A DNA stretch of 64,000 nucleotides, from the NCBI RefSeq assembly GCF_004210375.1, contig NW_027467782.1, forward strand, positions 26,887,276 through 26,951,275, in the 5' to 3' direction. The DNA is from Tachypleus tridentatus (taxonomy: Eukaryota; Arthropoda; Merostomata; Xiphosura; Limulidae). This document shows, one piece after another, positions 22,592 through 53,783 of the stretch. The first letter of the stretch is position 1. Every line of letters begins with the position of its first letter. The notes beneath the pieces were generated by a model. It did no database searches and was not told the DNA's origin. It saw nothing but the letters and a program-made list of their open reading frames with translations. A program made the translations under genes and the position numbers.

Positions 22592-22639
22592 CTATTGAAA
22601 TACGAAACGAAATGACTGTAGGACGTTTCCCAATTCAAA

Positions 22640-30896: not shown

Positions 30897-31278
30897 GAGT
30901 GCAGACAGGTCTGTCCGTGCCTCTAACAGAGTAATTTTCAAATCATCTCAATAATCTTTTGCCCTCTATGATTAAGAGACTAGATGAGTCAACGTCTACT
31001 TCCCTTTCTGTCCCAAACAATTCTTCCAGTTGCTATCCAGACCTGCTTCCTTTGAATTTGAGTTCTGGCGTTTCCTTGTGTCCATCATCTTCTCCGGCTC
31101 TGAGATGCAGAATAATAATTCGTTCACGCCCTCAATCGCTGGAATCTTCTTCCAACGACAGATACCTGCCCAATCAACCCAAGGCAGGATCCATGGAGGT
31201 CGATAAACTTCCTTCTAATAAAGAAACGTGGTCAAAAACAGAAACACTCTCGACCCAATTCTCCAGCACATAAGTAAA

Positions 31279-32130
31279 AATGGTCATTTTGATACAGTGG
31301 AACTGTCGCGGTTTATGTTCAGATCTGGATCATATTAAAGCACTGATTAATTCTTACCATCCTGTGTGTCTTTACAGGAAACATTTCTTGATGCTCTCGT
31401 TGAACAGTTGCCGTCTCCTTTTTTACACTTGAGGGACCTTAATGAACGTATTCCCTTCTGGAGAGGTGCTGATATTGATGGGAGAGGTCATTCCGTAGAG
31501 CATATGCTCTCGGAACACAACATTTTTTCTTCAGTAACGGTGTTTGTATATATTTTCATGCATTTAGTCAGAGTTTTACTGCTATTGATCTCTTGATTTA
31601 CTCTTCTTTACTTTTCCTGACCTTTTATGTAAGGATGACAGAAACCCACAGGGCAGTGATCATTTTCCTATCATTTTGAGAAAGAATGGCCTTGGTCGGT
31701 GCCACGAGGTTCGCGTGTCTCGGCGGGAGCTGGACCAAGCCAGTTGTCCCTCTTTCACTATTTTCTCGGAACTTGATCCTGCCATCTTCAATTAGCCATC
31801 AATAGACAAATGTGTGGCAGCGATAACTAACTGTAGTATCCAAGCAACACCTCAATCTATACATAAAACCTCGACACATTTTCCATGGTATACTTGTCCG
31901 TCGTGGAATCCACAATGCCACACAGCATGCAAGGCTCAAAAACGGGCCTGGGATACCTTTCATAGATATACCACACTTTCGAACCACATTACTTTTTAGC
32001 AAGCACGCGCATATGGACGGCAATTAAGACATCAAAGACAAAAAGAATCTTGGATTAAATTCTCAACAAATATATCTTCTATCACCAGTTTCAAAATCAT
32101 TTGGGACAAGATTCTTTTTGGCCTTCGTAT
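31279..32130 (+). pseudogene. LINE ORF2 endonuclease domain, broken
   Basis: It starts MVILIQWNCRGLCSDLDHIK, the usual opening of an APE-type endonuclease in Jockey-like LINEs. The catalytic phrase GSDHFPIILR lies near 31653. The linker after it reads WYTCPSWNPQCHTACKAQKR, with QARAYGRQLRHQRQKESWIK and SSITSFKIIWDKI. Several stops and frame changes interrupt it. The reverse transcriptase that should follow is absent. Confidence 0.75.
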
Positions 32131-33130
32131 CCAGGCACAGTTAGATAAATTGGTTTTGTTCTTGGATAATATTGCTCTATCCACTGGTCAGCCCCTCCTA
32201 CCAAGGCTTATTACCATTCCCAGGTGTGACCTTTCTTCGAGTCGTTTGAGAAAGGTGGATACGTCTTTTTGGAAGCACCATCTTCTGTTTGCTAAGCACA
32301 TTTTGAACCATCTTTCCATTCCATTTTATACGGATGGTTCAAAATCAAGTTACTATGTGGCCTCTGCCGTAGTTTGTTGTAGTTCGATGGTTGAGTGCAG
32401 AATCCTCTCTACAGTTTCTGTGTTCACTGCCAAACTGTATGCCATTTTTTTTGTCCTGGACCATATAGAAGCCAAGCAATGGTCAAATTGTACTATTTCT
32501 ACCGATTTGCTTAACTATCTACTGGCTCAGGAATCACTTCACATTAGGTTTTCACCCTGTTCTCGCCGACATTCAAAACGGACTGACCAGTTTATCTTTA
32601 ACATCTACTTTTATCCAGTTCTTCTGGACACAAGGACGCGTTAGTGTTCTCGAGAACGAGCTCGCTGGCATCGCAGCTCAGTTTACCTGCTCTGGCGTTA
32701 TTACTACTGTGCCTTTTCCAAACATAAACTATGGTCCTGTATTCAAGGCTCGGCTCTGTCCCAGTTGGCAGTCGACTTGGAGTGAGCAGCATGATAACAG
32801 TCTTTTCCAGAAAAAACCCTCTATTAGTCTTTTGTCGCCTTCTTTGCGCAAGAATCGGAAGGAGGAGGTTGTCTTAATTGGACTACGCATTGGTCACAGT
32901 TTTTAACTCATCGTTTTTTTTTTATCCAGGACTGTCGCTCCAGTGTATGGTCTATGTGACACTCAAGTCGCAATAGTCTACACTTTACTGTCGTACCATC
33001 ATTACGACTTTGAACGACGGCACCGATTTTAGACATGTTTTATCCAAAGGTTTACCCCTGACCCTGGACAGTACCGTTGGGGATGGTGACACTGTCCGCT
33101 TTACAAATGTTTTTTTTAGTTTTTTAAAGG
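32131..33130 (+). pseudogene. LINE ORF2 RNase H and C-terminal domain
   Basis: The end of the RT (STGQPLLPRLITIPRCDLSS) is followed by RNase H: FYTDGSKSSYYVASAVVC with the first acidic residue, then VFTAKLYAIFFVLDHIEAKQ with the Glu position changed to Lys. The third acid is seen in CTISTDLLNYL. A C-terminal stretch ends in VGDGDTVRFTNVFFSFLKDI then GLLNAI. The domain helps degrade the RNA template during target-primed reverse transcription. Confidence 0.75.
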
Positions 33131-33654
33131 ATATTGGCCTTTTAAACGCTATTTAAGTTTTTAATCAAAAATTGAACTTTGCTTTGTTTTAAAATGATTC
33201 GTGTTTAAGTATTTTAATAAATTTATTTTCAATATTTAACCGGTTGTTTGGCGCAAATGGCCTCGCTGCTTCGCACCATAAAACGCCAAACACCAACCAA
33301 CCATACGGGAGGAATCGTTTCCACTCCCTCATACAACTGTCTCTCTTCACGAGTAAACTTTCCTTTTTTCACAATGTTCTTCATTTTACAGAAAATAGCA
33401 TGCCTTCAAAGAAAAGCAATTCTATAAACTTGTTCAACTCAATAGCTCAAGGCAGGACTAGTATACATACACTATATCATAAATCTATTTGTGGTATTTT
33501 CAAGTGAATTTATTCCTCTACAAATGTCACACAGTGAGATCCTCAAATAAAAGCACATTCAATTAGTATGCATGTGGAGAAATGTGTGGTTGAAAACTTC
33601 CGTTCATTGCAATATCCTATGGTTATGGCACCAAATTTTTTTCTTCTTACCTTT

Positions 33655-33860
33655 TGTTTGTTTGTTTGGGAATTTCGCACAAAGCTACTCGAGGGCTATC
33701 TGTGCTAGCCGTCCCTAATTTAGCAGTGTAAGACTAGAGGGAAGGCAGCTAGTCATCACCACCCACCGCCAACTCTTGGGCTACTCTTTTACCAACGAAT
33801 AGTGGGATTGACCGTCACATTATACACCCCCACGGCTGGGAGGGCTGGGAGCCGGGCCGT
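33655..33860 (-). mobile_element. SINE, head missing
   Basis: Reverse-strand tail, core and body run to TTATACACCCCCACGGCTGG and stop at a short G-rich duplication (GGGAGGGCTGGGAGCCGGGC). The tRNA head is absent. The same body variant occurs at 60.1 kb. Confidence 0.88.
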
Positions 33861-33883
33861 TCTTCTTACCCACTATGTAATTC

Positions 33884-34486
33884 TATATCGTTACATAAAC
33901 TATTTGATAAGTAGTACAGTTACATCTATATCGTTACATAAACTATTTGATAAGTAGTACAGTTACATCTATATCGTTACATAAACTATTTGGTATGTAG
34001 TACAGTTACATGTATATCGTTACATAAACTATATGATATGTAGTACAGTTACATGTATATCGTTACATAAACTATTTGATATGTAGTACAGTTACATCTA
34101 TATCGTTACATAAACTATTTGATAAGTAGTACAGTTACATCTATATCGTTACATAAACTATATGACATGTAGTACAGTTACATCTATATCGTTACATAAA
34201 CTATATGATATGTAGTACAGTTACATCTTTATCGTTACATAAACTATATGATATCTAGTACAGTTACATCTATATCGTTACATAAACTATATGATATGTA
34301 GTACAGTTACATCTATATCGTTACATAAACCATTGATAAGTAGTACAGTTACATCTATATCGCTACATAAACAATTTGATAAGTAGTACAGTTACATCTA
34401 TATCGTTACATAAACTAGTTGGTATGTAGTACAGTTACATCTTTATCGTTACTTAAACTATTTGATAACTAGTACAGTTACAAAGA
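33884..34486. repeat. Tandem array, unit 43 bp, 14 copies
   Basis: The unit is CTATATCGTTACATAAACTA followed by TTTGATAAGTAGTACAGTTACAT in two parts. Variants alternate between TTTGATAAG and ATATGATATG. The spacing is a strict 43 bases apart from one unit shortened by a base. The array begins about 25 bases after a SINE. Confidence 0.95.
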
Positions 34487-34936
34487 AAAACATAGTTTAT
34501 AAATTTTTATTTTATCATTGCTGCTTTTATTTTACTTCATGTTTTGATTACTTTAAAACAAACAAACCTGATTTATAAGGAAATTCGTTTCCTCTACTAT
34601 AATTTTGTTAAAACTTAGCAAATAAACTATCAAGAAACAAAACAAAATTAAAATCACTGTAACAAATGTCAATAAACAATGTCAGTATAACAAAATTGTA
34701 TTGCTGAACCCGGAATTCGTTTCAAGAAGTGAACAGGGTGAAGACAGCTCATTGTGTTCTGTTAAAAGATAGAGAGAGAAAAGTAATGACGTTAATCAGA
34801 ACAAAGAAAAGCTGTTTATCAACACATTAAGATTTCGTTTTCTCTAAACGACGATATTTCTGTTTTTAGTTTTTATTTGTGTGTAGGAACAATCGTTTAC
34901 TATTCATATAATTTACAATGATTTTTTTTTCTCTGT
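34487..34936. other. No recognisable gene
   Basis: AT-rich flank of the 43-bp array. I see nothing in it. Confidence 0.5.
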
Positions 34937-35112
34937 TTGTTACTTATTGAATTTTTCCTAAAGCTGCTGAGGGGCTTTGTTTTCTTGCCGTTCCTAATTT
35001 CGAAATGATAGAATGAAGGGGAATAAAGCCAGTCAACACCACTCTATATGATACTCCAACTAAATAATGTTATTTGACAGTCACTTTTATAACGCACCTA
35101 CCTCTGCATAAA
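34937..35112 (-). mobile_element. Heavily degraded SINE
   Basis: The reverse-strand tail (TTGAATTTTTCCTAAAGCTG) and core landmarks (TTGCCGTTCCTAATTT, TTTGACAGTCACTTTTATAA) are recognisable in order. It is highly diverged. Confidence 0.6.
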
Positions 35113-35376
35113 TACGTGGTACAATTTTTCACATTAAATTCGCTGTATGTGAAATAGAAGTGTGCACAGTCTATCTCTAAACATGGAACCTCGGATCTAT
35201 GGTCCGGTATACAATATATATTTTAAACTTAGTAACATGATTCCTTTTACCTCTGAGTACCTGCTAAATAAATGTTTTAAACGTCAGAATAGACTATTTT
35301 TATTAAAATATAAGTCAATAAAACAGTTTTAATATACTGTTAAACACAAGTTAATTTAGGTTTTATTCCTCTATTT

Positions 35377-35443
35377 TCATGCTGCTACTGTTTGTTGAAG
35401 CTCAGTCTCTTCAACTGGACCTTCTGTCTGATATTTGACCAAT
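35377..35443 (-). CDS. Terminal coding exon of an unidentified gene
   Basis: On the minus strand a strong acceptor (TTTTCTTACAG) precedes 67 bases. In the frame entering after two bases of a codon they encode LVKYQTEGPVEETELQQTVA plus a final A, then TGA. An AATAAA poly(A) signal follows about 15 bases later, near 35361. This combination looks like a genuine last exon. The gene is not recognised, and its upstream exons must lie to the right on the same strand. It could belong with the exons at 61.6-62.6 kb, but nothing in view links them. A decayed copy cannot be excluded. Confidence 0.5.
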
Positions 35444-35656
35444 CTGTAAGAAAAGATCTGAATACAAAATTGACATTTATTAAAAAGAAATGGCAAGATT
35501 CGATAATAGCATTTTAACACATTTTCAAGCATATTCCCTGGTTATAACTCAAACACAGGATAGATGGCGCTTTAACACTTAAATGGAAGGTTCGAAAGTT
35601 CACGTGCGTGTTAGATTTGCTCTTAAATACCCGACAGCATTCTGAATATTTCTGTA

Positions 35657-35931
35657 AGTTTGTTTTTGAATTTCGCACAAAGCAACTCGAGGGCTATTTG
35701 TGCTAGCCGTCCCTAATTTAGTAGTGTAAGACTAGAGGGAAGGCAGCTAGTCATCACCACTCACCGCCAACTCTTGGGTTACTCTTTTATCAACGAATAG
35801 TGGGATTGACCGTCACATTTTAACGCCCCCACGGCTGGGAGGGCGAGCATGTTTGGCGCAACTCAGGCGCGAACCCGCGACCCTCAGATTACGAAGCGCA
35901 CGCCTTAACGCGCTAGTTCATGTCAGGCCCG
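35657..35931 (-). mobile_element. tRNA-headed SINE, full-length
   Basis: Reverse-strand tail, core, body (TTTGGCGCAACTCAGGCGCG) and head ending TGTCAGGCCC. It is well preserved. Confidence 0.92.
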
Positions 35932-36424
35932 TTTCTATAAGTAAAAGTCACATATTTTTAAAACAGTTTGAATTTGAATTTACTTGAATAATAATAAGCC
36001 AAGACTTCTTTGAAAGAACTAGCATCTTTCTGCGACTGAATAATACAGTCACAACTTGTTTTAAATACTTTGAATTTCCATATAGTTGTACGATAATTAA
36101 AAACCTTCTTCAAAACATAAGAGATTTATTCTTAATTTTTAAGGTAAACTCATACCTATGTTAGATATAACTAGCACAAAATATCTGTGGAGTTTAGGAC
36201 CCTCCATGATTCACAGATACCCCAATACGTCAATTAAGCTTCCTTATGACATCTAATTATTTTATATTTAACCATAAGTAGGATTTGTATACAAAAAAAC
36301 TAAACCCTTTCGGTATCAAACCGTGGCATTGGTATCTGTGCGCGTAAGGTATGTTTAGTTTCAATAGCTTCTGAGTGAGAATATAAACACAGTTTGAAAC
36401 TTCATGAACAGAGGAAATATGGAA

Positions 36425-36800
36425 ATCTTTTATTCTCCAAGAGAAAGCAAGTACAGAACTTTGTCATTCTGTGGTACTGTACTTACCTCAACATTCTTAA
36501 TATGGCTAGAAATACCAAAGAATTTAATGTAAGTAGCAAACTTTATTAATGTACCAATAGTAATTCTATTAATACCATTAATACAAATAGTTAAAAACAG
36601 AGGCCCAAATGCTGGGGATTGAGGCTTTCCACTAGTAACAAGGATCCAGTTTGATGGAACTTTAGTACTAACCATATGCTTTCTTCCATTTAATTAATTA
36701 TTTTTCCCAATCCATACTGATGAGATTTTCTAAGTTAATCTTATTTCATAGCACATTATTAAAAGGTTTTCCAAAACTATAGTAAACAAGTCCAAATAAC
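36425..36800 (-). mobile_element. LINE reverse-transcriptase palm fragment
   Basis: The minus strand reads SNWILVTSGKPQSPAFGPLF then LTICINGINR. This is the decayed form of the RT palm motif (family: VTSGVPQGSVLGPLLFxIYIND). In shifted frames it is preceded by VYYSFGKPFNNVL (family: DFxKAFDxVPH). The catalytic YADD/FADD position reads FATYIK, so it is dead. The clade cannot be set from so little. Confidence 0.75.
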
Positions 36801-37023
36801 AAGTAATGTTTACAGAAAGATAAAGATAACAGATTTATGAAGCAAAATTGAGGCGCTGTAAAAATTTGACCTCAAAACTTCTAAATGTATATAGTGAGTT
36901 ATGTATTAGATTGATACTCTCTTTTGTTAAATGAAAATGTATTTTCCAGATTGTTTTGTTCTCAGTTTATTTTCATTGTATGTGTATATATTTTAAGCCT
37001 TATTTACTTAAACGTGTTAATAG

Positions 37024-37124
37024 AATGGTTTGGAGTGCTGTTCATCTGGCAAGGGCATTACCAAGGAGGAGTATTTCGTTTCACTTTGTACATGCCAGAC
37101 AATTATCCTGATGAGGATTGCCCA
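37024..37124 (+). pseudogene. AKTIP: AKTIP-like exon a
   Basis: After the acceptor TTAATAG the exon reads [20 protein letters not shown] then [13 protein letters not shown], and ends at donor GTAGGT in phase 0. Human AKTIP has [20 protein letters not shown] then VYIPDNYPDGDCP. This exon on its own is intact. Confidence 0.88.
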
Positions 37125-38540
37125 GTAGGTGATCAACCTTAATTGTTTATTTTGAAATTATTAGCATTATAAAGATATACAAAATGTTTTTAAGAAGTTC
37201 TTGTGAAATTTATTACAATGATTTCAGAAATATCATAATGTTGTGCATCATTTTTTTTGTGTTATTGGTCATTGTATACTAGAACCTTATCAATCAGAAG
37301 TTAGAGTGATAGTTTGTACATTCATTCCAAGGCTGATATATCCTTAATAAGTTCTCAAAGGTATTGTACATGATTTGACATTATTAAGAAAATGAACTAA
37401 GTACATTTAAAAAATAAAAATGCTCAATACCCTACATATGAGAACTTTGATAATTGCATTAGGTTTTAGATCCCTACCAAAAGGTACTTTTTTAAAGTAT
37501 AAATTTATTAATTATTAAAAGATAATGTTTTAAATACCTGGTCTTAATATGTAAAGTATTTATACAGCTTATGCAACTTAATTGAATTTTAGCATCAACT
37601 TTAATCATTAAAATTAGCACAAAATTTATGCTTTTATGAATTTTAAAAATTCTAAGAAAAATGGCTTATTCTAGCTTTTTCTACTGCATTTAATTCTTAT
37701 ATTATTTTACCTATTAGCATTGTTTCATTTTATATTAATTGCATAATTTATTCTCTAAAAGGAGCATTTTCATAACTTGCAAAGAAGAGAGTTGAAGTGT
37801 AATTATGAGAATGATGAATGATAAATAAATTAGAATGTATTTAGAGGTTAACATCTTTGGTTTCAATGAAAATATCTTGTTATAACATAATTCTTTTATA
37901 CCTTCCTTATATTATTTCCTCGTTTAAAACTACAACAAACTTAAGCACTTGTGTTGCCAAAAGTTTTGTATAAGCTAATGTTGCAAGTGATGTTAATTAA
38001 CATTAATCAACTTGTAAAAAATTACTGATAAAGCTAAAACACTGGCCGGTTCACATTTTTTCTTGAGAAACTATCTACTCTGTTAACCGCCTTCTATATA
38101 TGATATATTTTTGAATATTATGCAAACTGTTACATCACATCTTTAGAAATACATATATTATTAAATCTTTTGATCTCAGTGTTATCAAAGTCTGTAGCTT
38201 CATCTCGCTAATACTTCAATTTTAACTTTACATTTTGAGCTACAGTATTTTCTTTAAAACCTCTGACAAGTTAGTTAAAGACTTCTGTAAGGCATTAGCT
38301 ACAAAATTACAACACTGCATAAGTAAGCATAGAAAAAGTTTAACTGTTAAGCCTAATTTGAAATCACTGAACATTTGTAACAAAAGGTTGTGTGTTAGGC
38401 ATAACTTCACAGCTTTAAAATTATGTTTTCTTTGTGATTTTAGAGAAAACATAAATAATGAACATTAGTTATCCTGTAAATATCAGACTGGAAAGGAAAT
38501 ATCGTATTTTTTTTAATACTTTAATAAACTGAACACAAAT
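37125..38540. other. Intron-like sequence of the AKTIP copy
   Basis: AT-rich, with no repeat family or exon recognised. The open stretches at 38235-38468 (both strands) have no motif. Confidence 0.5.
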
Positions 38541-39545
38541 TAGTCTTCAATTACAAATTTAATCACGATAATGTTTGCCCTCACTTTCTATGACATAACT
38601 CCATCTTTTGAGTAAGTTATGGATTCCTTGTGAATAAAATTATTTTGGTTTGGATTCAAAAACACAGTCTTATGTCAGATTTGAGTTCCTCCTTATTTGC
38701 ATACTTTTTTCCACCTAGGTAATATTGCAAGGATCTGAAAAGATGGTAATCAGATGGAGTAAGATTTTGCAAATAGGATGGATGAGGCACAACTTCTCAT
38801 TTCAAGGCCTGAAGTTTTTTTCATAATTTTTCAGTGTATGATGTTGCATTTTCATGGAAAATTATTACACATTTTTGATTGAATAATGCAGCTCTTTTCT
38901 TATCGGTACTTGGTGTAAGCTCTCCGACTGACGACACTATTTTTCAGCCATGATTGTTTCATTTGGATCCAAAACTTCATGATAGATTACACCTCCCAGA
39001 TTCCACCAAATACAAAGCAAAACCTTTTTTGGGTGTAAACCACTTTTCAGTGTTAGAATAGGTGTCTGACAGAAGTTCAACCATTGTCTCTAATGTTGAT
39101 TGTGCTCATAAAAAATCTGCTTTCCTTACCACTAATAATTCTCTCTATAAATGGTTCACTATCATCTCTTGTTCTCAAAGATGAACAAATGGTGACCCTC
39201 TGAGCATTTTGATTATTCATCAAATAATATGGAACCCATTATCCAAGTTTAAAAAACTTTTCCAAGCTTTTGTAGGTGAGTAATGATTGTTGAATGGATC
39301 TGTTGAGCCATTTCTTGCATGGTCAGTTTTGAATTTGCTTCAACTATGACTTACAGGGTATCTTTATTGATTGATCTTGGCTGTTTAGAATGTATGGAAT
39401 TGGTGAGATCAAATTCTCTTGATTGAAGCTTTGTGAACCATTGTTTGACGATTCCTGATATTCAACATATTTTCTTCATAAATTGTACATCTGTTTCTTG
39501 ATGAAACTTTCAGTGATGTCGAGAAACTTCTTCAAAGAAGAAGTG
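38541..39545 (-). mobile_element. mariner transposon relic, copy A
   Basis: On the minus strand the transposase reads KQWFTKLQSREFDLTNSIHS, then MAQQIHS and LG-stop-WVPYYL. It continues with NTEKW (family GDEKW), KKVLLCIWWNLGGVIYHEV-like sequence and LTPSDYHLFRSLQYYLGGKK, the third catalytic Asp of DD34D. It is broken by stops and shifts, and the first catalytic Asp is replaced. About 500 bases are nearly identical to the copy at 60.3 kb. Its N-terminal side runs up to the Penelope-like element at 39.55 kb. Confidence 0.85.
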
Positions 39546-39552
39546 ATGAAAC

Positions 39553-40770
39553 TTTGTAGAATGGACAATAACTGCCTGTTGTGGAGACAAGTGTAGAGGA
39601 CTACGCTTTGAGAGTCTTTGGCCTTTCGTCTTCAGGTCAGTGTGTGTGTGTTTGTAGGTGTTGTTGGTTTTTTATAAAGTTTTGTGGAGAGTGTGTTATG
39701 ATTTGTTGGATTATAACTGTTTCTGACTGGATGAGAGATTTCCTGTAGATTCAACCAATGACAGCCACAGGTTACTCACCTCTAATCCAGAATCTCTGTT
39801 AAGTGAAGGTTTAATAATATTAATATAAAACAGTTTATCATTTCTTGACATACTCATCAACAAACAAACAAGACAAGTAACCACAACTGTGTACAAAAAA
39901 CCCATCCACACAGACAGATACTTACACTTCCAGTCCTATCATCCAACCTCGATAAAACCTGGTATGATTCAATGCCTAAATAAGAGAGTAGAATGCCAGA
40001 AGATCATAGAGAGTTCTAAACAGAATGGTTAAACTTCCTCCTCCATCAAAAACTCTTTGAAGAAGACCATGACAGATAGAAAAGATCAGAAAGTCAGAAC
40101 CACTACCACCATTTACCTACCATACCAGCAACATTTTAGTGAAAAACTTAAATGCACATTCAAGATATTCAATATAGAAGTCCAGTGGAAATCTTACAGT
40201 ACCTTTAGGTCCATTCTGATAAAAAAAACAACAACAAAAAAACAGCAACCTACCAAAGAGAATCTCAAAAATGTCATCTGTGAAATTTTGTGTTCCTGCA
40301 ATGATACATAAATTGGAGAAACTCGTGAGAAGTATAAAAGAACCTAAAGATAGTACAACACTCATGAAAATGCACATTTCAGCCATTGCAGAGCACACTA
40401 CATCAACTGGACACAGAATAGACTGGGAGAAAACAAGAATCATCAACACAGACAAATTCTGTAAGACAAGAAAAATCAAAGAATCTTTTTATTTTAACAC
40501 CATTAAACCTTCACTGAACAAAGATTCCAGATTAGAGGTGAGTAACCTGTTGCTGCCATTGGTTGAGTCTACAGGAAGTCTCTCCTCCAATCAGAAACAT
40601 TGATAATGCAACCAATCATAACACACTCTCCACAACCCACCAGGGCACTATAAAAGACCAACAACACCTACATACACACTGACCTGAAGAAAAACAGGAA
40701 GATAACTTTCAAAACATCATCCTTTACACTTGTCTTCACAACAGGCAGTTGCCATCCATTCTACAAAGTT
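39553..40770 (+). mobile_element. Penelope-like element fragment with inverted terminal repeats
   Basis: The central part encodes the end of a Penelope-type reverse transcriptase (TTTVYKKPIHTDRYLHFQSY) and a GIY-YIG-type endonuclease region (NVICEILCSCND followed by IGETREKYK). The ends, 39553-39835 and 40488-40770, are inverted copies of each other at roughly 85-90% identity by eye. Inverted terminal copies are known in this group. The element is 5'-truncated and broken. It appears to sit in or beside the mariner relic, because mariner-like sequence (AAACTGTACATGTGTTTCTT) recurs just after its right end. Confidence 0.8.
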
Positions 40771-41137
40771 TCATCATGAATATTCTACCTGAACAGTCTA
40801 TAAACTGTACATGTGTTTCTTGTAGTCTCTGAAGCTTTCAAACCTTTTTTAGTTCATGTAGCATACATGCACCTCTTTTGAAACTATTCCTTAGGTTTTT
40901 ATAGGTTAAAATTTTTTTTCTAAATGTTTATCAATTAACTTAAAGTAAGAAGTAAGGCTTATTAATACATTGTCATTGAGAAAAAGGCAAACATTTCGAA
41001 GTTGTTTTCCTCAAAACTCAATTACAACTTTTGGAAAAAAAACTAAAAAAACGTTATTTGCTTTCCAACTTAATATGTACTTATAAATTGAAATTTAAAT
41101 ATATTTTGTATTAAAATTTCATCTTATTTTCTTACAG
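40771..41137. other. Intron-like sequence of the AKTIP copy
   Basis: The first 60 bases may be displaced mariner sequence. The rest is AT-rich and leads to a good acceptor (TCTTATTTTCTTACAG) at 41137. Confidence 0.5.
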
Positions 41138-41226
41138 CTAATAGTTTTTGAACCATCAGTTTTTCATCCTTTAATAAATATTTAAACTGGAGAACTAGAT
41201 GTAAAGAGAGGATTCCAGAAATGGAG
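41138..41226 (+). pseudogene. AKTIP: AKTIP-like exon b, with stop
   Basis: The exon reads LIVFEPSVFHPLINI, then a TAA at 41183-41185, then TGELDVKRGFQKW, and ends after two bases of an Arg codon at donor GTCAGT. Human AKTIP has [20 protein letters not shown] then VKRAFAKWR. The stop falls at the position of the Thr after Pro. Confidence 0.85.
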
Positions 41227-41959
41227 GTCAGTTTAAGATACAGCCATTATTATTGTTTTACAAATTGAAAGTATCTCCATATCAGACACTGAACTGCATT
41301 ATTTAGATTCAGTTGTTAAGGGAATTAATATATTTGATAAAAGGAATAATTTCACATTTCAAATATATGAGCTTCCTTCACCACATAATGCTATACATTT
41401 GTAACGTTTTTTGATATTTTAATATCAGTAATATACCATCCTTAACATTTAGTATGAACACATTTGTAATAAAATTGATATTCAGTGGTTTTTAATAATA
41501 AAACAGTAATTGAATAGTTTAAATTGTTGTATAATAAGTATAGAACATATTTATATAATTCCAAAATAATAATTCATCTACTTGCACAAGAATGCCATTT
41601 CCTTTGCATGTTTGCTTGTGAGATTTGCATGCTACTAGCCTTGTGCTAATTTATACTTAAATTCTCATATTTAACATGAACTGTGCTGGTGCATGATGAC
41701 ATAATCATGCAATGGTAGCTCTCTACCAGTAGCAGGGTAGTGTGATTCCATTTGTACTAACTTTCTCTATGCACTTGCATTTGTGATAACTTCATTCTTT
41801 TCCTTGGCATTGAAGTTTCAAATTTGTGTTTAATTTGATGAGATTTACATTGGTTAATGAAACTGGTTTTTGTTTTCTATAGTTTTGTAACAAAAATGTT
41901 GATTATTGTCTTGAATTCTCAACTGAATGTAACTGATACTTAATTACTTGTTTTATACT

Positions 41960-44900
41960 CAGGCTTCTGGAGGCTTGTTTATTTTTGAGAATGTTCAACA
42001 TGCTTTGGATTACCACAGGTTTACTGATTCATTTACCCCAGTCCCTTCACCTGATGTTCTTTCTCCCAGTCAGGTATGGCTTATTGTACTTCAAATGCAA
42101 CCTGATTTGCTTTAAGTAGTGTCTTACCATTTGGAGAATGTCCAGTCTTTTCTGATTTTCATTCTCATGTGTGTTCATTTCCTAATTTTTAACTGTATCC
42201 TGTAATATTCTTTTTCACTTTGTGAACCCAGTTTCTGAAGTTTATTTTGTTTTTCCTCCTACCTTTTTATTAAATGTTTTTTTTTTTTCCTATCACACCT
42301 AGATGTTTCATCCTGCTTATATTTGTGACACTTTTTTATGTCTTGACTTGCAGATGTTTATCCTTTCTAGATTCTTTGCCTTTTATCTATTTGGTCTGCT
42401 TTGTGATCAGGCCACTTGCTTTATATTTGATTCTGTGGTTCCCCATTTTTGCATTTTCATCTTTTTCTCACCACCCCTGTCTTTCCTCCATATATTGTCT
42501 GAGGCATTTCACCATGCTTTAGAGAAGTTTTGTGCAGAAATTTATTTATTTTTTTCTCTTTGCCTTTTTAACCTATTCCACTTCTGTTCTATCCCTCCTT
42601 AGTTTGTTTCCCTTTGTTAGGACTTGTTGAGTTAAGTTGCATTCCATTTTACAGTACCTTTCTCTTTTTCTGGATTCCTTTCTTTAGGTAGCCATTGTTG
42701 ATGGTGTTCATTTCTCACTGGAGACCTGGTTTGAAGTTATATTTATATCCTTATTACTTTCTCATGTTTTTTTTCTTAATTTTATTCTTTGATTCCTATT
42801 CCATGTTTAATCAATTTATCAAAAACCTTCTCATTCCAGGTTGTAGAGCTTTTTTTTTCTCCTTCCATTACCTAACAACTGGTGCATTGCTTGTCTTGAC
42901 AGTGTGATTTTATTGTCATGTATGACACTCTAGACACCCAATTGTTTTATCTTACCTCTAGCTGAACTCATTTTCAATAGCCTCTCTTTCCCTATCTTTC
43001 TTTGCTCCTTTTCCCACTTTTTTTTTCTATGACTCTGTATGTTCTTTTTACCTGGTGTGTTGTTTCTTTGGTTATCATATCAGATACCATTTCACACATT
43101 GCTGTTAATCCATCCTCCCTGTGTTTTCTATTTTTTGTCTATCAGATTTGCATCTTTCAATTCCTTGCTGTTCTCCATGGCACAGCATTAACTATTTTTG
43201 TATTCATTTGGCCTAGGACTGTCATTTTTTTTTCTAGATGATTGACTCTCTGTTGGCCCACTTTTGGGTAATATCCTCTTCTCACACTTCAGTTTCTTTC
43301 CAGGAAACCACTTAGTTTGGGTGACTTGTCAGAATATCCAAGTCCTTTTTCATGCCCACTCAATATTTGGTATTGTTGGTATTTTTTCCATTTCATTCTT
43401 TTTGCTTGTGGGTTTTGGGGTATCTGGACACTAGGACTTGCACTTCTCATTGTCATTTTGCATGAGGGGTTCTTTTGCTTTTTGGGATTTTAACTTCCTT
43501 GAAACCCCTAATTTCATAGAGATTTGCACATGATAATCTCCTTCAATGGATTGTACATATCTGAGGATTTTTTTTTCTCAGGTTCCATTGTTCTTTTTTG
43601 TGAACTTCCCTCTCACATTCACAAGGAATTGTCATTTTGACTGGACCATTTCCATACTTATGGCCCTTTCTTACCAACTTCTAAACCACATCTATCTCTT
43701 CACCAATGCTTTCTTCTTGGATTGAGGTGCATTTCTGTATGACATGATCTCTGGCATTTGGATGCAACATGACTGATCACCTAAACTCACTGTTCTTTAG
43801 AACATTTCCATAACTTTCCTTTTCTGTCTGATCATACAGTCAACAGTCCACTCTGATGCATCAACAGTTATCTTTACACCTACTATTAAGGAATATATAT
43901 CCCAGTCCCTTTGTTTTGGGCATTGGACTGTATCCTTCTGGGCTTATTCCTGTAGGGTTAACTTTTGTTCCTTATTATGTGCCTGGAGCTGTATATCTTG
44001 TGAGAGACAGCCTGTCTCAGCCAGGTTATGTTTCTACCCATGGTGTGATCTCTTCTCTCCCATGGTCTTTTGAGTTTGTCCTTGCTTGGGTATGCCCCTC
44101 ATGACACCTTTGCCAGTCCTCTCTCCTCCAGTCTTCATTTGTTTTATTCTTCTGTTCCCCATCCTGTGGCTCTGGCTGTTAAAGTTTTAGCTAGGATTAG
44201 TGTCTTCTGTTGGAAAATATACCTTTTGCCTATAATTCTCTTCCACTAAACCCTTGGTCTTTAACTTGATACATGAAAGTTCTTCTAAAATCCTACTGTG
44301 ACCAAATTAATCTTGGTTTTCTCTGCTTCATCACTTGGTATCAACACCTCCTTCAGATACCAAATATCCATTCACTTTTGCTTCAGTATCATGCATCCCT
44401 TTTCATGAAAGAGTATTTCTCTATCATGTAGGAAATTTGTATTTTCATAGTGACAGATTTTCCTATCATGTAACCTTTTCTTGTCAAATTCCTATTTCCT
44501 TCCAATTTTGTCCATCTCAGTATGACTGTGGTGATATTTTATTATTGATCCATCTACCATTCCTCTCCTCCTGACTGTTTTATTATGCCCCATCTTTCTG
44601 CCTTTTATTAATTGGATGTTCAACCATGGTTTGTCAGTCCGCACCATTGCTGATTATTGGGCAGCACTTTCTGGTGCATTTTACCTTTCCTTCTCCTCTT
44701 CACTTGGTTCTGCTCTTTCCCTCTTCACTATCCTCCTTACTTAACTTCCATATGGGCCTGGCAAGGTCAGATGGATTAAGGTGTTCAACTCATAATCTGA
44801 GGGTCCTGAGTTCAAATCCCAGTCACACCAAACATGCTTGCCCTTTCAGCCATTGTGGCATTATAATGCAACAGTCAATCCCACTATTTGTTAGTAAGGG

Positions 44901-45800
44901 ACAGTTAGTGTAGATAGCCCTAGTGTAGTTTTGTGCAAAATTTAGAAAATGAACAAACAAACTTCTATACTGGACTGTATCCATAATGTGGTTTTGCATG
45001 CCCCATTCATGCCATTGGATTTTTACTTTCTGTATCACTTTTGTATCTTAGTTTGTCCTTATTTGTGGTCACCATTGTTTAGATATTTGTGCTATTGATG
45101 GTTCTCGCATCCTTTTTCAAGATATTTATTCACTCCTGTACTTGGACTAGTATTTCCTTCTTCAATCTTCTGCCACTTGTAATAAATAATAACCTTTCCT
45201 TCTCTCCTATTTCTATTGCTTTTTTTTTCTTACCCATGTGATAATTCAGACCCAAGTCACCTCCTTTGGCCTGTTCAGGATGTGAGGTGTCACTTCTGCC
45301 TTTTTGGGTCCTTGTCATCTTCTGTTCCTATCTTGATACCTCTCATTTTCCAGGGACCTCTCTCCTACTCTTAATGGATGAGTCATTCAACTGTTCTGGC
45401 TAGTATATTCTCCTCTTGATGGAGAGTGCTCACAGGTTATTTCTTTTTTTTATACATCATTTTTCTCATTTTCTTTCACAGTGTTGTTGGCCATAGCATA
45501 GGATTCTTCAGATGGACACGTAGATGACTTTCTATACAGACATTTCTTCTTCTCCTGACTATCTGGTTATTTTGTTTTCCATGAGAAATAGACTTCTACT
45601 AGTTGCTGTACTTCAGTCAATCCACCAGTAGAAATGTGTAAATTTGTTTCTCCTTTCTTCATACATGATCCTGCCAGGTGGCTGGTGTTCCCTCAAAGGA
45701 TACATTTATTTTCCAAATTGTAGAACAATCCACAATTGCAGAAGTCTTTCTTTTCTGCCCAGGCAACCTCATACCACCAGTGTCCACATTAAAATAAAAG
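41960..45800 (+). mobile_element. DIRS-like tyrosine-recombinase retrotransposon fossil
   Basis: Scattered frames match a DIRS-type element from memory. The RNase H-side phrase SDASTVIFTPTIKEYISQSL is followed by the DSLSQPGYVSTHGV block near 44.0 kb and a tyrosine-recombinase region near 44.6-45.7 kb (LSVRTIADYWAALSGAFYLS). It is old and heavily broken, with many breaks. The left boundary is uncertain, because 41.96-43.2 kb is pyrimidine-rich but gives no clear domain. A main-family SINE is inserted in the recombinase part. Terminal repeats were not found. Confidence 0.6.
44754..44962 (+). mobile_element. tRNA-headed SINE nested in the DIRS-like fossil
   Basis: Head with B box GAGTTCAAATCCCAG, body and tail are present. 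The middle of the core is deleted, so that TTTGTTAGTAAGGGACAGTT joins body to distal core. Confidence 0.88.
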
Positions 45801-45807
45801 TGTATTT

Positions 45808-45920
45808 CACCCAAGGTTCTGAGTTTGAAGCCCAGTCACACCAAACATGCTTGCTCTTTCAGCCATTGTGGCATTATAATTCAACAGTCAATCCCACTAT
45901 TTGTTAGTAAAAGAGTACCC
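45808..45920 (+). mobile_element. SINE fragment, head part and body
   Basis: It begins inside the head (AAGGTTCTGAGTTTGAAGCC), continues through the body and stops at AGTAAAAGAGTACCC. The core and tail are missing. It shares private changes with the 44.75 kb copy (GCCATTGTGGCATTATAAT). Confidence 0.85.
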
Positions 45921-46473
45921 ATATGGTACATATGGACATATGATTTTTTAAAAATCATGTTTTCTTCCCTTTTGATGTAATATTTTTCAAAGATTCTGTA
46001 GCTCAGTTAAATTTATATTTGTATGTATGTTTGTGTATATATTTAATGTGTGTGTGTGTGAATTTCACACATATATCAAGAAAGAAAACGTTCGAATAAT
46101 GAAGTTTTCTAAAAGATGACATTTTGTTGAACTGTTGAAAACAAAATTACTGAATTCTGAGTTTAGAGTTTTCATGAAGAATTTATGAAATAATTAAAAC
46201 ATTATAGGTTTTTTATCATATATTTTATAGATATTATTCCATGTAAGGAATTTTATTTTTCACAGGCTCCTCTAATTTCAAAACAAGAAATTAAGATTTG
46301 GTATATTAAGCTTATTAATTGATACTGTTTTGAGTAAAAGTGTAATTTTTAACTGTTAAAGGTAGATAGATTTGTGGAACATATTTATTGAAAACTGATA
46401 CATATTACTGGTGAATTTATAAACGTAATTGTTAAAAAAAAACAACTAATACTTTAATCTTTCTATTTTATAG
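45921..46473. other. Intron-like sequence of the AKTIP copy
   Basis: AT-rich, with a short GT run near 46045-46060. It leads to an acceptor (TTCTATTTTATAG) at 46473. Confidence 0.5.
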
Positions 46474-46622
46474 AAGAAATGTCAATCATATTTGGCAAGT
46501 AATTTTGTATGCGCTTGTTGAATTTTCTATGAAATAGAAAATCAAAATCCACTGAATCCAGAAGCATCAGTTTTGCAAGTAAATGTCCTTTAACAGAAAA
46601 TCTTGTTCAAAGAATTCTGCAC
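46474..46622 (+). pseudogene. AKTIP: AKTIP-like exon c, with stop and frameshift
   Basis: The first base completes an Arg codon split across the intron, giving KWRRNVNHIWQVILYA; human has KWRRNHNHIWQVLMYA. A TAG follows at 46535-46537. The next recognisable phrase, PLNPEASVL (human PLNPEAAVL), starts at 46549 in another frame, because the intervening part has 35 bases where 33 are expected. After it the reading decays (a TAA within a few codons). The 3' limit is uncertain. Confidence 0.82.
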
Positions 46623-49019
46623 TTTCACCAAAAAGGTACAAGCTAATAACTGTATCGTACAGATAGTAATAAACATTTATCAGTTAATTTGTGCTTATTT
46701 TGACTTCAAGTGGATATTAGTCATTATGACAAATTCAACTTTGGAATACAATACCCAAGTGACCTTTTCTAACTTATGCCATAACTTTTGATAAGTGTGT
46801 GAACTTTTCATATGTACCTCAATAAATATCTGAAAAAGGACTGAAATTTGTAGTAGTTTAGTTATTATAAGGTAAAATTCCTGTTATAAAAAATTCTAGA
46901 GAACTTAATCTAATATAAAATGCAAATGATTAGTTATTTAGTCTTACTTCTTAAATTCCTGAGGGACTAGGTAATGAATGCAGTGTTTAAAAATGTAATA
47001 GACCAAACTCTAATGTTTTATGACATGTTTAATTATAAACTGATAAATTTATTGTAACATACAGTTGCTTTTTTGTTTACCAATTGTATGTTTATCCTTA
47101 CTGGTTTGCATTGTATTAATTTCTGAATGTAAAACTTTGAAAGTTTCATGGTTTAAAGATAAATAACACTATAAAATAAAATGAGAGAAGTTTTAAAAGT
47201 TAAGAAGCCTACAGTTCTTAAGATTAATAATTGTTGTGGACCAGAATCAACTAAGTAATTCTCTTTTAAAATAAATATAATTTTTTTTTATTATATTACT
47301 TAAATTTTAATTTTAATATGGTTTATTATGATACAGTTAATTCAAAAATAAAGAAAATAAGAGAGAGAGAGTTTGAATGAAACCCGTTTGTTTGTTTGGG
47401 AAGTTCTAGATATTATGTGAAAGAAATATTATTAATATTAATAGTAATTTTATTTTTACCATGAAAATCACCTATTACATAGAATATCTCAGTAAAAGTT
47501 TTGTAAATTTTGACTCTTTGTGTATATAAAAGACTGGTAATGCTCACTAAGAAATTTATCAAATTTCATGAAGGTAACCTGGCACATTCACTTATAATAC
47601 TTACAGTTTCATAGTTACATGGTGTTTGAGATCAATCAAAAGGAACAGTCTGTATACAGAGAGTTAAACCTTGAGCCATGTATTTTGAATAATGTTATGT
47701 GATTAAAACCACTTAAATCTAGCTACATCACAATTGTTTCTATGGCATGAACATTCTCTATTTCAACAACAACATTTCTAATACTTCTAGTAAGCTTTGT
47801 TCTAAGACTGGCATTCTACTTTGTTCTAGCTTTTCCTCCATCAGATCTTGTTTTTGTTTTTTTCCTGTATATTTTTTATTTATTATTATAAAAGTAACTA
47901 AAATGTAAGTATTGACAAATTAAAATAAATAGTAATAATAATAATAATTGTTTATGAGGTATGCTCTTGAATAGTTCTGTGTTATTAGATTCAGTACTGT
48001 GAAGTGGGATACACATTCCCCATGTGAGTTGCAATTTATATGCCACAAGTATTAGTCAGACAGGTTTGAAGGGCAATAGAATAATTTAATTTTGTGTGTA
48101 TATTAGTTTGTTATAACTTAGAAAACAAGCTGAAACAAAAATGCTGCACTAATTGAAAAGATCCCAGAGAACAAGCTATAATGTGGGATTATAAGATGTG
48201 CCCTAGGTTTAAGAGATGACTGTAGAAGTAGGACCCACAATGTGGTGGGGATACACTGTATATTAGTCTTAACCTCCAGTCTCTTAATAGATATAGAAAT
48301 TATGAGAACGAGATGTGGGTGCTCAAGCCCACAATGCCCCTCATCTTTATCACCATTCACTACCTGCAGACAAAATGTGGAAAGGTGACTGCTCTCCCAA
48401 GTAAAGAAGAAAATGAATTGAAGTAATGCAAGAAAAGGAAAATAAGGTACGACCATTTGGGATAAGTTGAAAACTTTCCTCTTGAAGTTAGCATTCCAGC
48501 TCCCAGTATGATAGAAAGGCACTAATTGACAACACAGTAAACAAACTATACCAGCATGTGTATGTGTATGTATATATATCTATATATTTAAGCTGCTTAG
48601 TTGGGATAAACATTTCTAATTTTGTGTTCTAATTTGCAGTCATTTCAGAGAGAAAATTGGAGAAATTTATAATTATTTTCTAATTTTATAATGGTTACAA
48701 GGTTGGTCAAATAAACTGACCTCATAATGTCTCACAGAGTTAAATATCATCCCTCAAAAGTAATATAAAATTGTCTTTTATATAAAAGTGTTTTCATACT
48801 CCTTGAGTGATGCACATATTTTGGAGACAAACAAGCGAGTTGTTGCTATAATTTGTCCATTATAACAACAGTTGGACCAAAACAAATAATAAAGGAAATC
48901 ATGTTGTCACTTTTATCTAATGATACCTTAAAAAAAGAAGATATTTTGTTCATTAGAAAAGCCTTTCATCTTTACCCTCTTGTATACTGTCCAACTTTAG
49001 TACTTGCTAAGGATAAACA
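46623..49019. other. No recognisable gene
   Basis: AT-rich sequence. The minus-strand open stretch 48118-48522 (134 codons) has a repeat-like look but no domain I can name. Confidence 0.45.
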
Positions 49020-49315
49020 ACATGAAATGAAGCATTGGGATAAGTCAGCTTTTTGTCAGTTGTGTTTATCATCTGGACATTAATTGTTTTGGTTGTCTAA
49101 GATCTATGGTCAACATCAGGAAACTTAAACTTGTATACTGTTGCAAATTATTGGTTATTTTAGCCTAGAAAATATAATTTCTATGTCTCGAAAAAAATAT
49201 TTGAGACATATTTACAGTGTTGGTAGTGTATTTCACAAATTTTGTGAGTTACACTTGTTACGGTCTACTGTACTCAAACATTTACTTTCTGTATAACAGA
49301 TATGTTCTAACAGCC
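49020..49315. repeat. Duplicated block, copy 1
   Basis: About 296 bases match 52531-52836 at roughly 80-85% identity by eye, for example AACTTAAACTTGTATACTGT and GTTATTTTAGCCTAGAAAAT. No SINE or LINE landmark is present. It could be an unclassified dispersed repeat or an old local duplication. Confidence 0.75.
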
Positions 49316-50654
49316 TTAATCACATTTTCTCATATTAAACAATCATTTATAGTAAGGAAAGTTAAAGCATACATTCAAACTGTACACCTGTCAATGTGCT
49401 GCTCCTGCAGCTTATTTTTACTTGAGGTGTTTTGGAACTTGAATGTAGATTGCCACAGTTTCTTTACATTTTAAAGATCTGATATCTATATTCCACACCA
49501 CAATTGTTGTTTATTAATGAATATACATTTTCTATAGGTTATATTTATTTACTATGATATGCCTTCAAACATGTTTTAATCAGTTTCATTTTTCAGCATT
49601 GAAATCTTTGCATTAATTAGAATTAACCTATAAGTAAAGGAAAGTTTATTAATGAATAGGTTTCAAAATTGAATAAGCATAATAGTACAGTTTGTTTATT
49701 ATTACTTCTTTTACAAAGAAAATGTAATTTTTATAAAAAACTATTTGAAATCAAATGAATTTAATTGTTTTTTATGAATAATTACTTCTATGAATTTCTG
49801 AAGTTTTAAGTTTAAAGTTAGCTTTTATCTTAATAGTAATGATCTTACACAGGTGTAAGTTAAATGTGTATTTAATTTATAAATTAATAGTTAAGAATAT
49901 GTGAATTTCACTACTAGGTAGTTGTCTATTCATATAAAATAAAACTAGTTTGACAAAATGTAATATTTTAATAACTTTGTGATAACTGGAGTTGAAGATA
50001 AGCAGCAACTAATGGTTGCTAAATGGAAGATGGGTTATGCATTCCTCAAATTGTAAGCTTCCAGATTTTGATTAATACAAATAGTAATTATTTTAATACC
50101 CTTTGTAAGTAGTATTGATGTTTCCATTATTTTTGAACTTGTTATTTTGCAGTACTGTTGGATACTTCTTTGAATTTTATGTAACAAAATTAGTTTAAGA
50201 CTTATCAATAATCATAAGAAAATATTTTTAACTGTAGATATGAGAGAGACCTAGAATTGTTCAAGGTCAAAGTGGCTGAGAGTATTAACTTTTGTAATGA
50301 AAAGCTGTATGATACCTCAACTCAAGATCCACATGCTCTCCACTTCAGTCTATAAGAACCGACTATACATGAGAATGTTAGGAAGAAATTATTATCTGGA
50401 AATGTGTGTTACTTTTTGTATTTTACTGAACTTATTCCTCCCAGTTATTGCTCAACTTGCTCGTACCAGGATAAGAGTTTTAATGCATGATTTAATTATT
50501 GTTGCTATAAATGCAAATGCAAAAATATGTGGAAAAACAACAACAACAACAAACAATTCTTATGTACCTCAAAGTTCATATTTATACATTTATAAATTTT
50601 AAAATGTATAAATCAAGTAAATAATTATTTTTCTTCTAATATTCTCCTACAAAT
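49316..50654. other. No recognisable gene
   Basis: AT-rich sequence. The open stretch 50297-50602 (plus) has no motif or splice support. Confidence 0.45.
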
Positions 50655-50775
50655 GAGGCCCAGTATGGCCAGGTGATTGGGGCATGTGACTTAAAATCTG
50701 AGGGTCACAGGTTTGACTCCCTGTCCCACCAAACATTCTTGCCTTTTCAGCCATAAGTGCATTATTATGTGAAAA
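50655..50775 (+). mobile_element. SINE, head and start of body
   Basis: The head (AGGCCCAGTATGGCCAGGTG) with B box CACAGGTTTGACTCCCTG is followed by the ACCAAACATTCTTGCC body. It ends before the core. Confidence 0.82.
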
Positions 50776-52530
50776 TAGAAAAAGTTAGAAAATAGTTTAG
50801 AAAGAGTTTTGAAATGTAGTTTGAGTGGTGTTTACTAGCTTAATTACTTTACAAATAACTCATGTTTTATCACAGTTTATAAACACTAATTTGTACTCTA
50901 CATCTTAGGAAGTACAATAAGTTATGTTTCTAAATGAATAAATTATCAAATTTTACAAGTCTGGTTTGCAAAATAAATGGACTAAAAGATTTGGGCTGGA
51001 TCTAAATTCAGTTTTGGTCATTTTGACACATTGTGGTCACCATGTAACCATCAAAATATATAACTCTGAATAAACTCGGTATACCTTCACAATTTTGAAA
51101 GCATTAATTAAACGTTACAAGTATTTTGCACACCAAAATCTGATTTTATTATGAGATATTTTCACTGAAGAGTTATTTATGAATTTCCAAATATTTCTGG
51201 GTCAATCTGAATGCAACACTCCAACCAGCCTTAAAGAATAAGACAAAATTATATATATGAAAACAATAAACTTAGTACTTGTATCTTTAGTTGGGCTGCC
51301 AACAGGTGAAGCACTCTAAACCATTTTTGTTTTGAGTGAGACAATGTTTATCTTCAAAAATTTGTACTTATTTCAAATATACATGTTTTTTTACAATACA
51401 AATAGTTATCATTCACTGTAGTAGGAGGTCTTATAATTACTGTAATTTTATCTTTCTAATGAAACTGTAAATTAGTTAGACATTTATCTGAATTATCTAA
51501 TTGTGAAATAACCAACATAAAGTTCCTTGTAAAGGGAATTCTTCTTTTTCTGTTGGTTAGAAATAATCCAACAACAATTTCAAAAAGAATTATTGACTTT
51601 TTTTAAAATAATTATGTAAGAGGGGATGTGTCATGTAGGTTGGACATTTTCTATGTAAGAAAAGCAAGAAGACTGGAGGTTTACATTCTGACTTGTCAGT
51701 ATCTATAATATGTTTTTGTAATTTAGCCTTGTTCACCTATGATATATTTAGTGTGTGTGTGTTGGAAAAACACCTCATTAAAAATCTGATTTCTTTTCTG
51801 TTCAAAGTACTTTATATATAAAAGCTTACAACATATCATGAAGATACAATTACTAAATTAAAAGTTTTCTATACTTCATTGGTTACAAGGTCAGTCAAAG
51901 TAACCAAGCACTTATTGTGTGGTAACATGCATTGATATTAAAGTAGTTTAATTAACAATTTTGAACACAACCTGTATAAATTGTTGTGACATGCATACTT
52001 TGGCACGTATATCTATACACAAGTTACCTGTCTTATCTAAAACTTATACAGAAATATTAAGATGCGACTTTTTCTGTTTTAGAAAGAAGATAACGATACT
52101 AAAGTCTCCACACCTTCTGGCTTATCCTGGATACAAAAAGGAACTTTGAAGATATTCTCAAAAACCATCTTAAATACCCAAATGTGATTAACGTTCCTTT
52201 TGAATAATAGTATTTTATGATATTTGATTGAAATATTCCTTTACCACATAAATAAACACTGACATGATTTTATTTAATTTTTAAGACATAGTTTGTTTTT
52301 CCAGTGCTATGTTTACCCTTCACAACACATTCAGATTCTGAAGGTAGTGATTATAAAGTTCAGTTTGAAATATATGTATGTATGTATGTGTTTCATTGTA
52401 ATGGATAACAAAAATTAAATTGGTTATACTGTTCAGATTGATTTTTTTAAACAATAAAGCCTCTAATTTATAAAAAATAAACTTGAATTTCATGTTTGTT
52501 TTTCATTCTCATGCAGTTGTCAATAACAGT
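50776..52530. other. No recognisable gene
   Basis: AT-rich sequence. The short phrase GGTTACAAGGTCAGTCAAA at 51883 resembles GGTTACAAGGTTGGTCAAA at 48696. This hints that the 49.0/52.5 kb duplication may once have been longer. Confidence 0.4.
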
Positions 52531-52836
52531 GTATGAAATAAAGCATAGGGGCAAGTCAACCTTCTGCCAGTTACGTTAGCCCCTGTGTATATTGCCTGAA
52601 CACTAATTACTTTTGTTATCTAAAGTCTATGATCAACATCACCAAACTTAAACTTATGTACTGTTGCAAATTATCAGTTATTTTAGCCTAGAAAATATAA
52701 TTCCTATATTTTGAAAAAAAATACATAAGACATATTTGCAGTGTTGGTAGTGTATTTTGTGAAATTTGAGTAAATTTTATTATAGTCTACTGTACTCAAA
52801 CATTTACTTGCTGTGTAACTGATTTGTGCTAACAGT
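52531..52836. repeat. Duplicated block, copy 2
   Basis: Partner of 49020-49315, in the same orientation and about 3.5 kb away, with small gaps and many substitutions. Confidence 0.75.
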
Positions 52837-53783
52837 TTTGTGATTTATATTCTATAACAGTGAAATAAAATTCTGTGTAATTTTAAGATGCTGATTTTTC
52901 AATGTAATCAAAACTTAACGCTCAGTAATACTGAAATTGTAGTGCATATAAATATTTGTAAGATAATAAATATTTTTGTTTACACCACGAAATTATTGTA
53001 AAAAATATTTTAAGAAATGTAACAATTTTATGAGCTTTTGTGCTTAGTTTTCCTAATGTTACTTACAAGGTTCTTGCATACAAAAAACAACAAAACTTCA
53101 TATAACAAAAGATATAAACCAAGTCTCAACTACAACTATAGTCAAGATAAGATTGAAATAAAGACACAAAACTGTACTCAAAATACTACTGGTTTCAGCA
53201 TGAATAATTGATTCAAAAGGATACATGAGTAACTACTGGTAGCTTCACACTAGTCAGTGACTGTGTAAAATGTATGAGATATAGTTTAAGATACACTCAC
53301 CAAGACCTGTGTTGATTTAAAAAATAAAATTAAGATAAACCACAAAGGGACCATGAAACTCCGTGTTATAAACTTATCTAGAAATGGAAAGGAAATTATT
53401 CGTCTGAATGTGAAAAGTATTTATTTAAATTAAGGCAGTTATTGTTTTAGTTTAATGTTTTCTGTACCTTGGTATAATCACCGATGTGTAACTTGTGTTT
53501 ATGTGATATTTTGAAAAGCTCTCCTGTTTTAAAGAGTAAAATGGTTACTAAAAAAGTTAATATTATGTTTTTATTGGCTGGCAAATGGAAGTGAAATAGA
53601 GAACAACAAAAGCCTAAAAGAAGTTTGACAAATGTTTTCTGGTTCACACGTGTTTTATAATCTAGTCTTCATATAAAGTCTTCTAATCATAAAGATAAGA
53701 AGTGAATTAATATTCCTATTCGTACAGATGTTATATACAATATATATATGTTCAGATATATGTTACTGAAACAGACCTGTTTG
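52837..53783. other. No recognisable gene
   Basis: AT-rich sequence. I see nothing in it. Confidence 0.5.

Follow-up and report, generated by a model that had tools for sequence, protein, structure and literature searches.

The 64,000-nucleotide stretch of DNA analysed here (the window, C19:26887276-26951275) contains five exons of a copy of AKTIP, which lie in order on the plus strand between positions 37024 and 52173. AKTIP, also termed FTS, belongs to the FTS-Hook-FHIP complex and is an E2-like protein without catalytic activity. The copy is very probably a 5'-truncated, non-processed AKTIP pseudogene within an interspersed segmental duplication, and the genome is probably that of the horseshoe crab Tachypleus tridentatus. 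An earlier note, made from the sequence of the window, had described three exons within 37024-46622; these correspond to exons A to C, and exons D and E lie beyond that extent. The features that define the copy are:

37024..37124, plus strand: AKTIP exon A, open and ending in ...NYPDEDCP; acceptor TAATAG, donor GTAGGT
41138..41226, plus strand: AKTIP exon B, with an in-frame stop codon at 41183-41185; acceptor TTACAG, donor GTCAGT
46474..46574, plus strand: AKTIP exon C, with a 2-base insertion at about 46510-46511 and a GC donor at 46575-46576
50238..50403, plus strand: AKTIP exon D, with an in-frame stop codon at 50353-50355
52083..52173, plus strand: AKTIP exon E, the last coding exon, with a 2-base deletion near its end
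36426 (36425-36426), no strand: left end of the homology to older members of the family

The translation of exons A to C, joined by hand and read through the lesions with X at the stops, matched residues 106-201 of human AKTIP (PDB 8qat_D) with an E-value of 6.8e-37. The runner-up, an ordinary E2, reached 1.2e-7, so chance similarity or descent from another UBC-like gene is very unlikely. The AKTIP identity proposed in the earlier note thus holds, and the alternative it had allowed, homology to some other UBC-like gene only, fails because the best match is AKTIP and not another E2 or ubiquitin E2 variant (UEV). The same translation is matched by the Pfam family UQ_con (E 8e-15). For exons D and E, the counterpart in a human AKTIP sequence entered by hand is the segment of residues 202-285, to which exon E aligns only weakly (tblastn E 0.83). 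Both the window copy and the first copy of an AKTIP cluster on scaffold C6 (C6 copy 1, see below) contain a GELDVKR-type segment, GELDVKRGFQKWR, in an E2 fold without the catalytic cysteine motif. The replacement of GxICLD by GELDVKR is presumably the mark of AKTIP's missing catalytic cysteine motif.

The borders of exons A to D and the start of exon E coincide with those of C6 copy 1. The order of exons A to C is as reported before, and so are the two junctions: DCP|L has phase 0, and AG|A splits an arginine codon. With introns present at these positions, a processed copy is ruled out, and the copy stems from a duplicated gene with a broken frame, as had been proposed.

The window copy is set apart from human AKTIP and from C6 copy 1 by two in-frame stop codons, two indels and a GC donor, and in contrast to human AKTIP it is devoid of the known upstream exons. 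Its coding frame is lost and the copy is dead; from these lesions, it is predicted to make no AKTIP protein. The earlier description of two stops and a frameshift in exons A to C has to be modified: the stop in exon B lies in frame and the insertion in exon C is present, but the stop at 46535 is read solely through this insertion and is no separate lesion. Likewise, the splice sites of exons A and B look functional, but the donor of exon C is GC instead of GT. Other copies have two further exons upstream of exon A, here called N1 and N2, and neither of the probes for these matches anywhere in the window.

Relatives were sought in the whole 2.17-Gb assembly (205 contigs) with exons A-C, D, N2, N1 and the exon E region, and the pooled matches were grouped by place; loci are named by scaffold and position in Mb. 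At least 20 AKTIP loci were found on eight scaffolds: C6 carries a cluster of six, C19 has five, C11 three and C13 two, and C1, C4, C8 and C9 have a single locus each. Fourteen loci beyond the C6 cluster thus sit on seven other scaffolds, and the two on C13, at 112.8 and 114.5 Mb, may belong to the same copy. In these exon-level searches, none of the exons had a match at every one of the 20 loci. Apart from this family, the whole-genome search with exons A-C returned no AKTIP relative, the other matches being ordinary E2s with 26-41% identity. One or more exons were read at 17 loci (all of the 20 except C9, C19:28.2 and C13:112.8), with N1 read at 3, N2 at 10, A and B at 14 each, C at 13, D at 12 and E at 10 loci. 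Some known exons were not fetched, N1 of the C4, C9, C13 and three C19 copies being known from the N1 search only.

Among the 17 loci that were read completely or partially, C6 copy 1 (C6:130.207-130.239 Mb) is the only one in which all seven known exons are unbroken. Its splice sites show GT and AG, its reading frame stays open over 239 codons with the stop counted, and its exon A keeps residues in common with human AKTIP (R and L in RQGLY). The earlier note had called for an intact AKTIP elsewhere with the same intron positions as support; a copy that has these positions and is unbroken over seven exons is present in this genome, and we infer that it is the parent gene. All 11 copies read outside C6 have a lesion or are without some exons. 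C6 copies 5 and 6 (C6:130.54-130.67 Mb), which are in opposite orientation, have open exons N2 to E, and the N1 probe gave no reported match for them; judging from these exons, they could be candidates for expressed truncated paralogues.

Several lesions of the window copy recur at other loci. The exon B stop is common to the window, C19:26.39 and C19:27.08 (3 of 14 loci read for exon B), and C11:0.984 has the exon D stop of the window (2 of 12 loci). The exon C GC donor of the window also occurs in C11:0.984, C19:27.08 and C19:25.02 (4 of 13 loci). This pattern bears on the possibility that the lesions are assembly or consensus errors and that the locus encodes a working AKTIP. Although near-identical copies are a known hazard for assemblers, the occurrence of the same lesions at separate loci makes assembly or sequencing errors unlikely, and the window is also without upstream exons N1 and N2; a working gene at this locus is thus regarded as highly improbable. 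The common lesions rather indicate that dead copies were copied onward or exchanged sequence.

The copies align with the window through the introns. Near exon A, the window differs from 12 other copies by 0.1-5.0% substitutions: 0.11% from C11:0.984, 0.5-1.0% from C11:0.955, C19:26.39 and C19:27.08, 2.8% from C13, and 4.1-5.0% from C1, C11:74 and five C6 copies. Near exon B, the range for nine other copies is 0.7-12.9%, with 0.7% for C19:26.39, 3.8-4.9% for C6, 5.7% for C11:74, 7.2% for C1 and 12.9% for C8; C11:0.984 is left out of this comparison, as its fetched stretch spans 56% of the region. In the tree of exon A, the window joins C11:0.984 (bootstrap 87) and then C11:0.955 (99). The copies thus form blocks of more than 1 kb with at least 90% identity, including introns and flanks, on several chromosomes, as is characteristic of an interspersed segmental duplication; the C8 copy is an exception (about 85-89% identity over the main blocks).

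The assumption that the host is a horseshoe crab, made in the earlier note, agrees with the marker genes. The genome has 19 places with a match to Coagulin (PF02035). Three coagulogen exons were read, and outside the artificial joint they are identical to the coagulogen of PDB 1aoc. Since we take 1aoc to be the coagulogen of Tachypleus tridentatus, the host is probably this species.

Ohnologs from a whole-genome duplication (WGD) keep their introns, as the AKTIP copies do. A dying ohnolog, as which the window copy had been interpreted, would also be expected on a different chromosome from its unbroken paralogue, as is the case here, and WGDs have been published for the horseshoe crab lineage (PMC7815833 and PMC7210998, each in part). 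The available part of PMC4066314 gives peaks of synonymous divergence (Ks) at 0.71 and 1.34 for the paralogues of Limulus, which are regarded as ohnologs, and a mode of 0.35 for Limulus versus Tachypleus. The divergence of the window from other AKTIP copies, 0.1-12.9% through introns, is far below these WGD peaks, and there are at least 20 loci; an ohnolog origin is therefore rejected and has at most a marginal probability. Paralogous flanking genes, the other support named for this origin, were not found: the flanks consist of dispersed repeats, and the ten open reading frames (ORFs) of the window profiled against Pfam contain no usable marker. Young duplicates have been described in the mangrove horseshoe crab, for which PMC7210998 (in part) ascribes the youngest component of fourfold degenerate transversions (4DTv; mean 0.02) to recent small-scale duplication.

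Ks 0.35 and 114-154 million years (PMC4066314, in part) give, by our own arithmetic, a rate of 1.14-1.54e-9 substitutions per site and year. If the synonymous rate is assumed to apply to introns as well, the split between the window and C6 copy 1 would date very roughly to 17-23 million years ago; the split from the closest C11 copy, in the tract described next, is dated equally roughly to 0.6-0.8 million years ago.

The relationship to the C11 copy changes along the window, and two further features are distinguished:

33700..53100, no strand: tract nearly identical to the copy at C11:0.96-1.0 Mb, from substitution counts along the collinear alignment
40486..41275, no strand: mosaic patch that includes the exon B stop, from four derived sites common with C19:26.39

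Between 34.5 and 53.0 kb (34500-53000), the window and the C11 copy differ by 0.17% substitutions (32 of 18,423 sites compared), compared with 4.2% in the left flank (21391-33304; 472 of 11,251 sites) and 1.8% in the right flank (53000-60300; 134 of 7,259 sites). The comparison ends at 21.4 kb because the fetched C11 stretch ends there. The resulting tract of about 19 kb has a sharp left edge at about 33.7 kb and a less clean right edge, beyond which the divergence in some bins of 500 bases is as low as 0.4-0.8%. A 43-base tandem array of 14 copies (33882-34482) adjoins the left edge. This distribution suggests a recent exchange or re-duplication between chromosomes.

Inside the tract, the four sites of the patch show the derived base in common with C19:26.39, and C11 has the base of the C6, C11:74, C1 and C8 copies. 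C19:26.39 is comparable with the window over 36426-38778 and 39394-42324. In these parts, 20 derived sites are common with C11, none of them within 40281-41719; ancestral bases were taken from the agreement of C1 and C11:74 only. If all 24 calls are valid, the chance that the four sites cluster in this way is 21/10626, or about 0.002, by our own arithmetic and post hoc. At the bounding site 41720, the C6 copies have the base of the window. These sites suggest that the window copy is a mosaic in which a C19-like patch is set into a C11-like tract, a pattern compatible with gene conversion or re-duplication.

In human segmental duplications, interlocus gene conversion also acts between duplicates on different chromosomes, but the mean interchromosomal track given in the available part of PMC3790853 is 348 bp compared with about 19 kb here, where conversion is only a candidate; a conversion tract of this size would therefore be long. 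This length favours a recent event in which an AKTIP block was duplicated and inserted between homologous repeats already in place, over a conversion of an older copy, and the high-copy repeats in the flanks would make a landing between them possible. However, collinearity with the C11 copy extends over about 12 kb of one flank and 7 kb of the other, which an older duplication with later homogenisation would predict, and the small mosaic patch fits conversion. A fresh insertion is consequently a serious candidate whose chance falls somewhat short of even.

Altogether, the window copy is seen as an ordinary non-processed pseudogene from an unusually copied family. AKTIP blocks with their introns and flanks would have been copied from the C6 gene to other scaffolds, by homology-driven duplication or exchange between repeat-rich blocks, for which non-allelic recombination, gene conversion or break-induced replication may be considered. 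Several copies were copied again after breaking, because lesions are common to separate loci. Over 354 sites of exons B to D, with C8 as outgroup, the window lineage has 9 changes compared with 2 for the C6 lineage; constraint on the C6 gene and freedom from it in the window copy would lead to such a difference, but the numbers are small. A first polarised count, with exon E included, gave 10 versus 3 and was replaced because this exon is scrambled in C8.

Several points weigh against this interpretation. As exons N2 to E are open in C6 copies 5 and 6 as well, the parentage of C6 copy 1 stays an inferred one, and the term unbroken refers to its seven exons, with the ATG-bearing first exon lying outside these. 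The window has a ratio of nonsynonymous to synonymous differences (pN/pS) of 0.4 to C6 copy 1 and not of 1, a value that mixes a constrained and a free lineage, is based on 19 changes and does not by itself show neutrality. At the derived site 40365 beside the patch, C11 and C19:26.39 agree against the window. The near-identical tract could be an assembly chimera of two near-identical loci, and the evidence base is the DNA sequence of one horseshoe crab genome.

Two broader roles for the family have been considered. The many AKTIP copies, on both strands and including the opposed pair C11:0.955 and C11:0.984, might be a source of non-coding or small RNA that regulates the parent gene, but the known 5' exons are missing in the window copy, and such a function appears improbable. 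In a more far-reaching and rather doubtful scenario, the AKTIP block would be an arthropod counterpart of a primate core duplicon, which spreads with flanking repeats over at least eight scaffolds, concentrates on the repeat-rich and perhaps non-recombining or sex-linked C19, and whose dead copies overwrite one another by unusually long interchromosomal exchanges of about 19 kb. As interspersed segmental duplications, the AKTIP copies resemble those around the primate core duplicon LCR16a/NPIP, where a block that carries a gene has also reached many sites on the chromosomes, accompanied by flanking duplications; in contrast to the 11 AKTIP copies read outside C6, which each carry a lesion or are without some exons, NPIP copies keep an open reading frame (PMC7419210, in part).

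As a segmental-duplication pseudogene, the window copy no longer provides a tempting case of ongoing gene loss after WGD, and counts of ohnolog pseudogenes in horseshoe crabs need prior filtering of young segmental duplications. The AKTIP copies form an age ladder, with several members dead before they were copied, and offer arthropod material for studying interchromosomal exchange. If a gene predictor passes over the lesions, it may report too many AKTIP genes for this genome. A literature search found no paper linking AKTIP with horseshoe crabs; PMC7952090, a candidate report on AKTIP pseudogenes, was discarded since the match was to author names beginning with Aktip only.

Probes from both flanks of the window copy proved to be dispersed repeats. 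The left probe (34600-35100, inside the near-identical tract) had 123 first-look candidates, with 14 of the best 40 on C19, and the right probe (56600-57100) had 372 candidates, with 27 of the best 40 on C19, the window itself included in each case. The C19 places of the right probe all lie within 0.4-31.1 Mb; 12 of those of the left probe lie within 32 Mb and 2 near 43 Mb. C19 measures 69.8 Mb and makes up 3.2% of the assembly. The enrichment of the flanking repeats on C19 is only suggestive, because the best 40 candidates were scored and ranking by likeness to a probe from C19 favours C19. The kinase, UQ_con and Coagulin matches listed are on C1-C13, save two kinase matches on C19, so that C19 resembles an additional unit of chromosome scale besides thirteen others. 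Gene poverty of C19 was considered as well and is unsupported, with 2 of 125 kinase matches versus 4.0 expected by length, from a scoring of only 123 of 2,257 kinase candidates; for UQ_con, the numbers are 0 of 84 versus 2.7 expected.

Among the ten ORFs of the window profiled, only DUF4371 scored above the cut-off and a Tc3-type helix-turn-helix just under it (E 3e-7), the rest having E-values of at least 0.0066 or no match. DUF4371 (E 2.2e-14) lies in an open frame of 639 residues on the minus strand at 20675-22591, which presumably encodes a hAT-transposase-like protein. A Tc1/Tc3-like transposase remnant is located at 17318-18358 on the plus strand; HTH_Tnp_Tc3_2 matches in 17318-17971, and the following frame was assigned to the remnant by eye. 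The intron between exons A and B contains a Mariner-like transposase remnant on the minus strand (38650-39240), called by eye from its translation. The ORF at 11892-12251 (plus strand, 120 residues) had no Pfam match above the cut-off and is useless as a synteny marker, since it belongs to a dispersed family with 37 matches on C2, C4, C8, C9, C11 and C19. One of the matches on C2 sits in an open frame of 725 residues.

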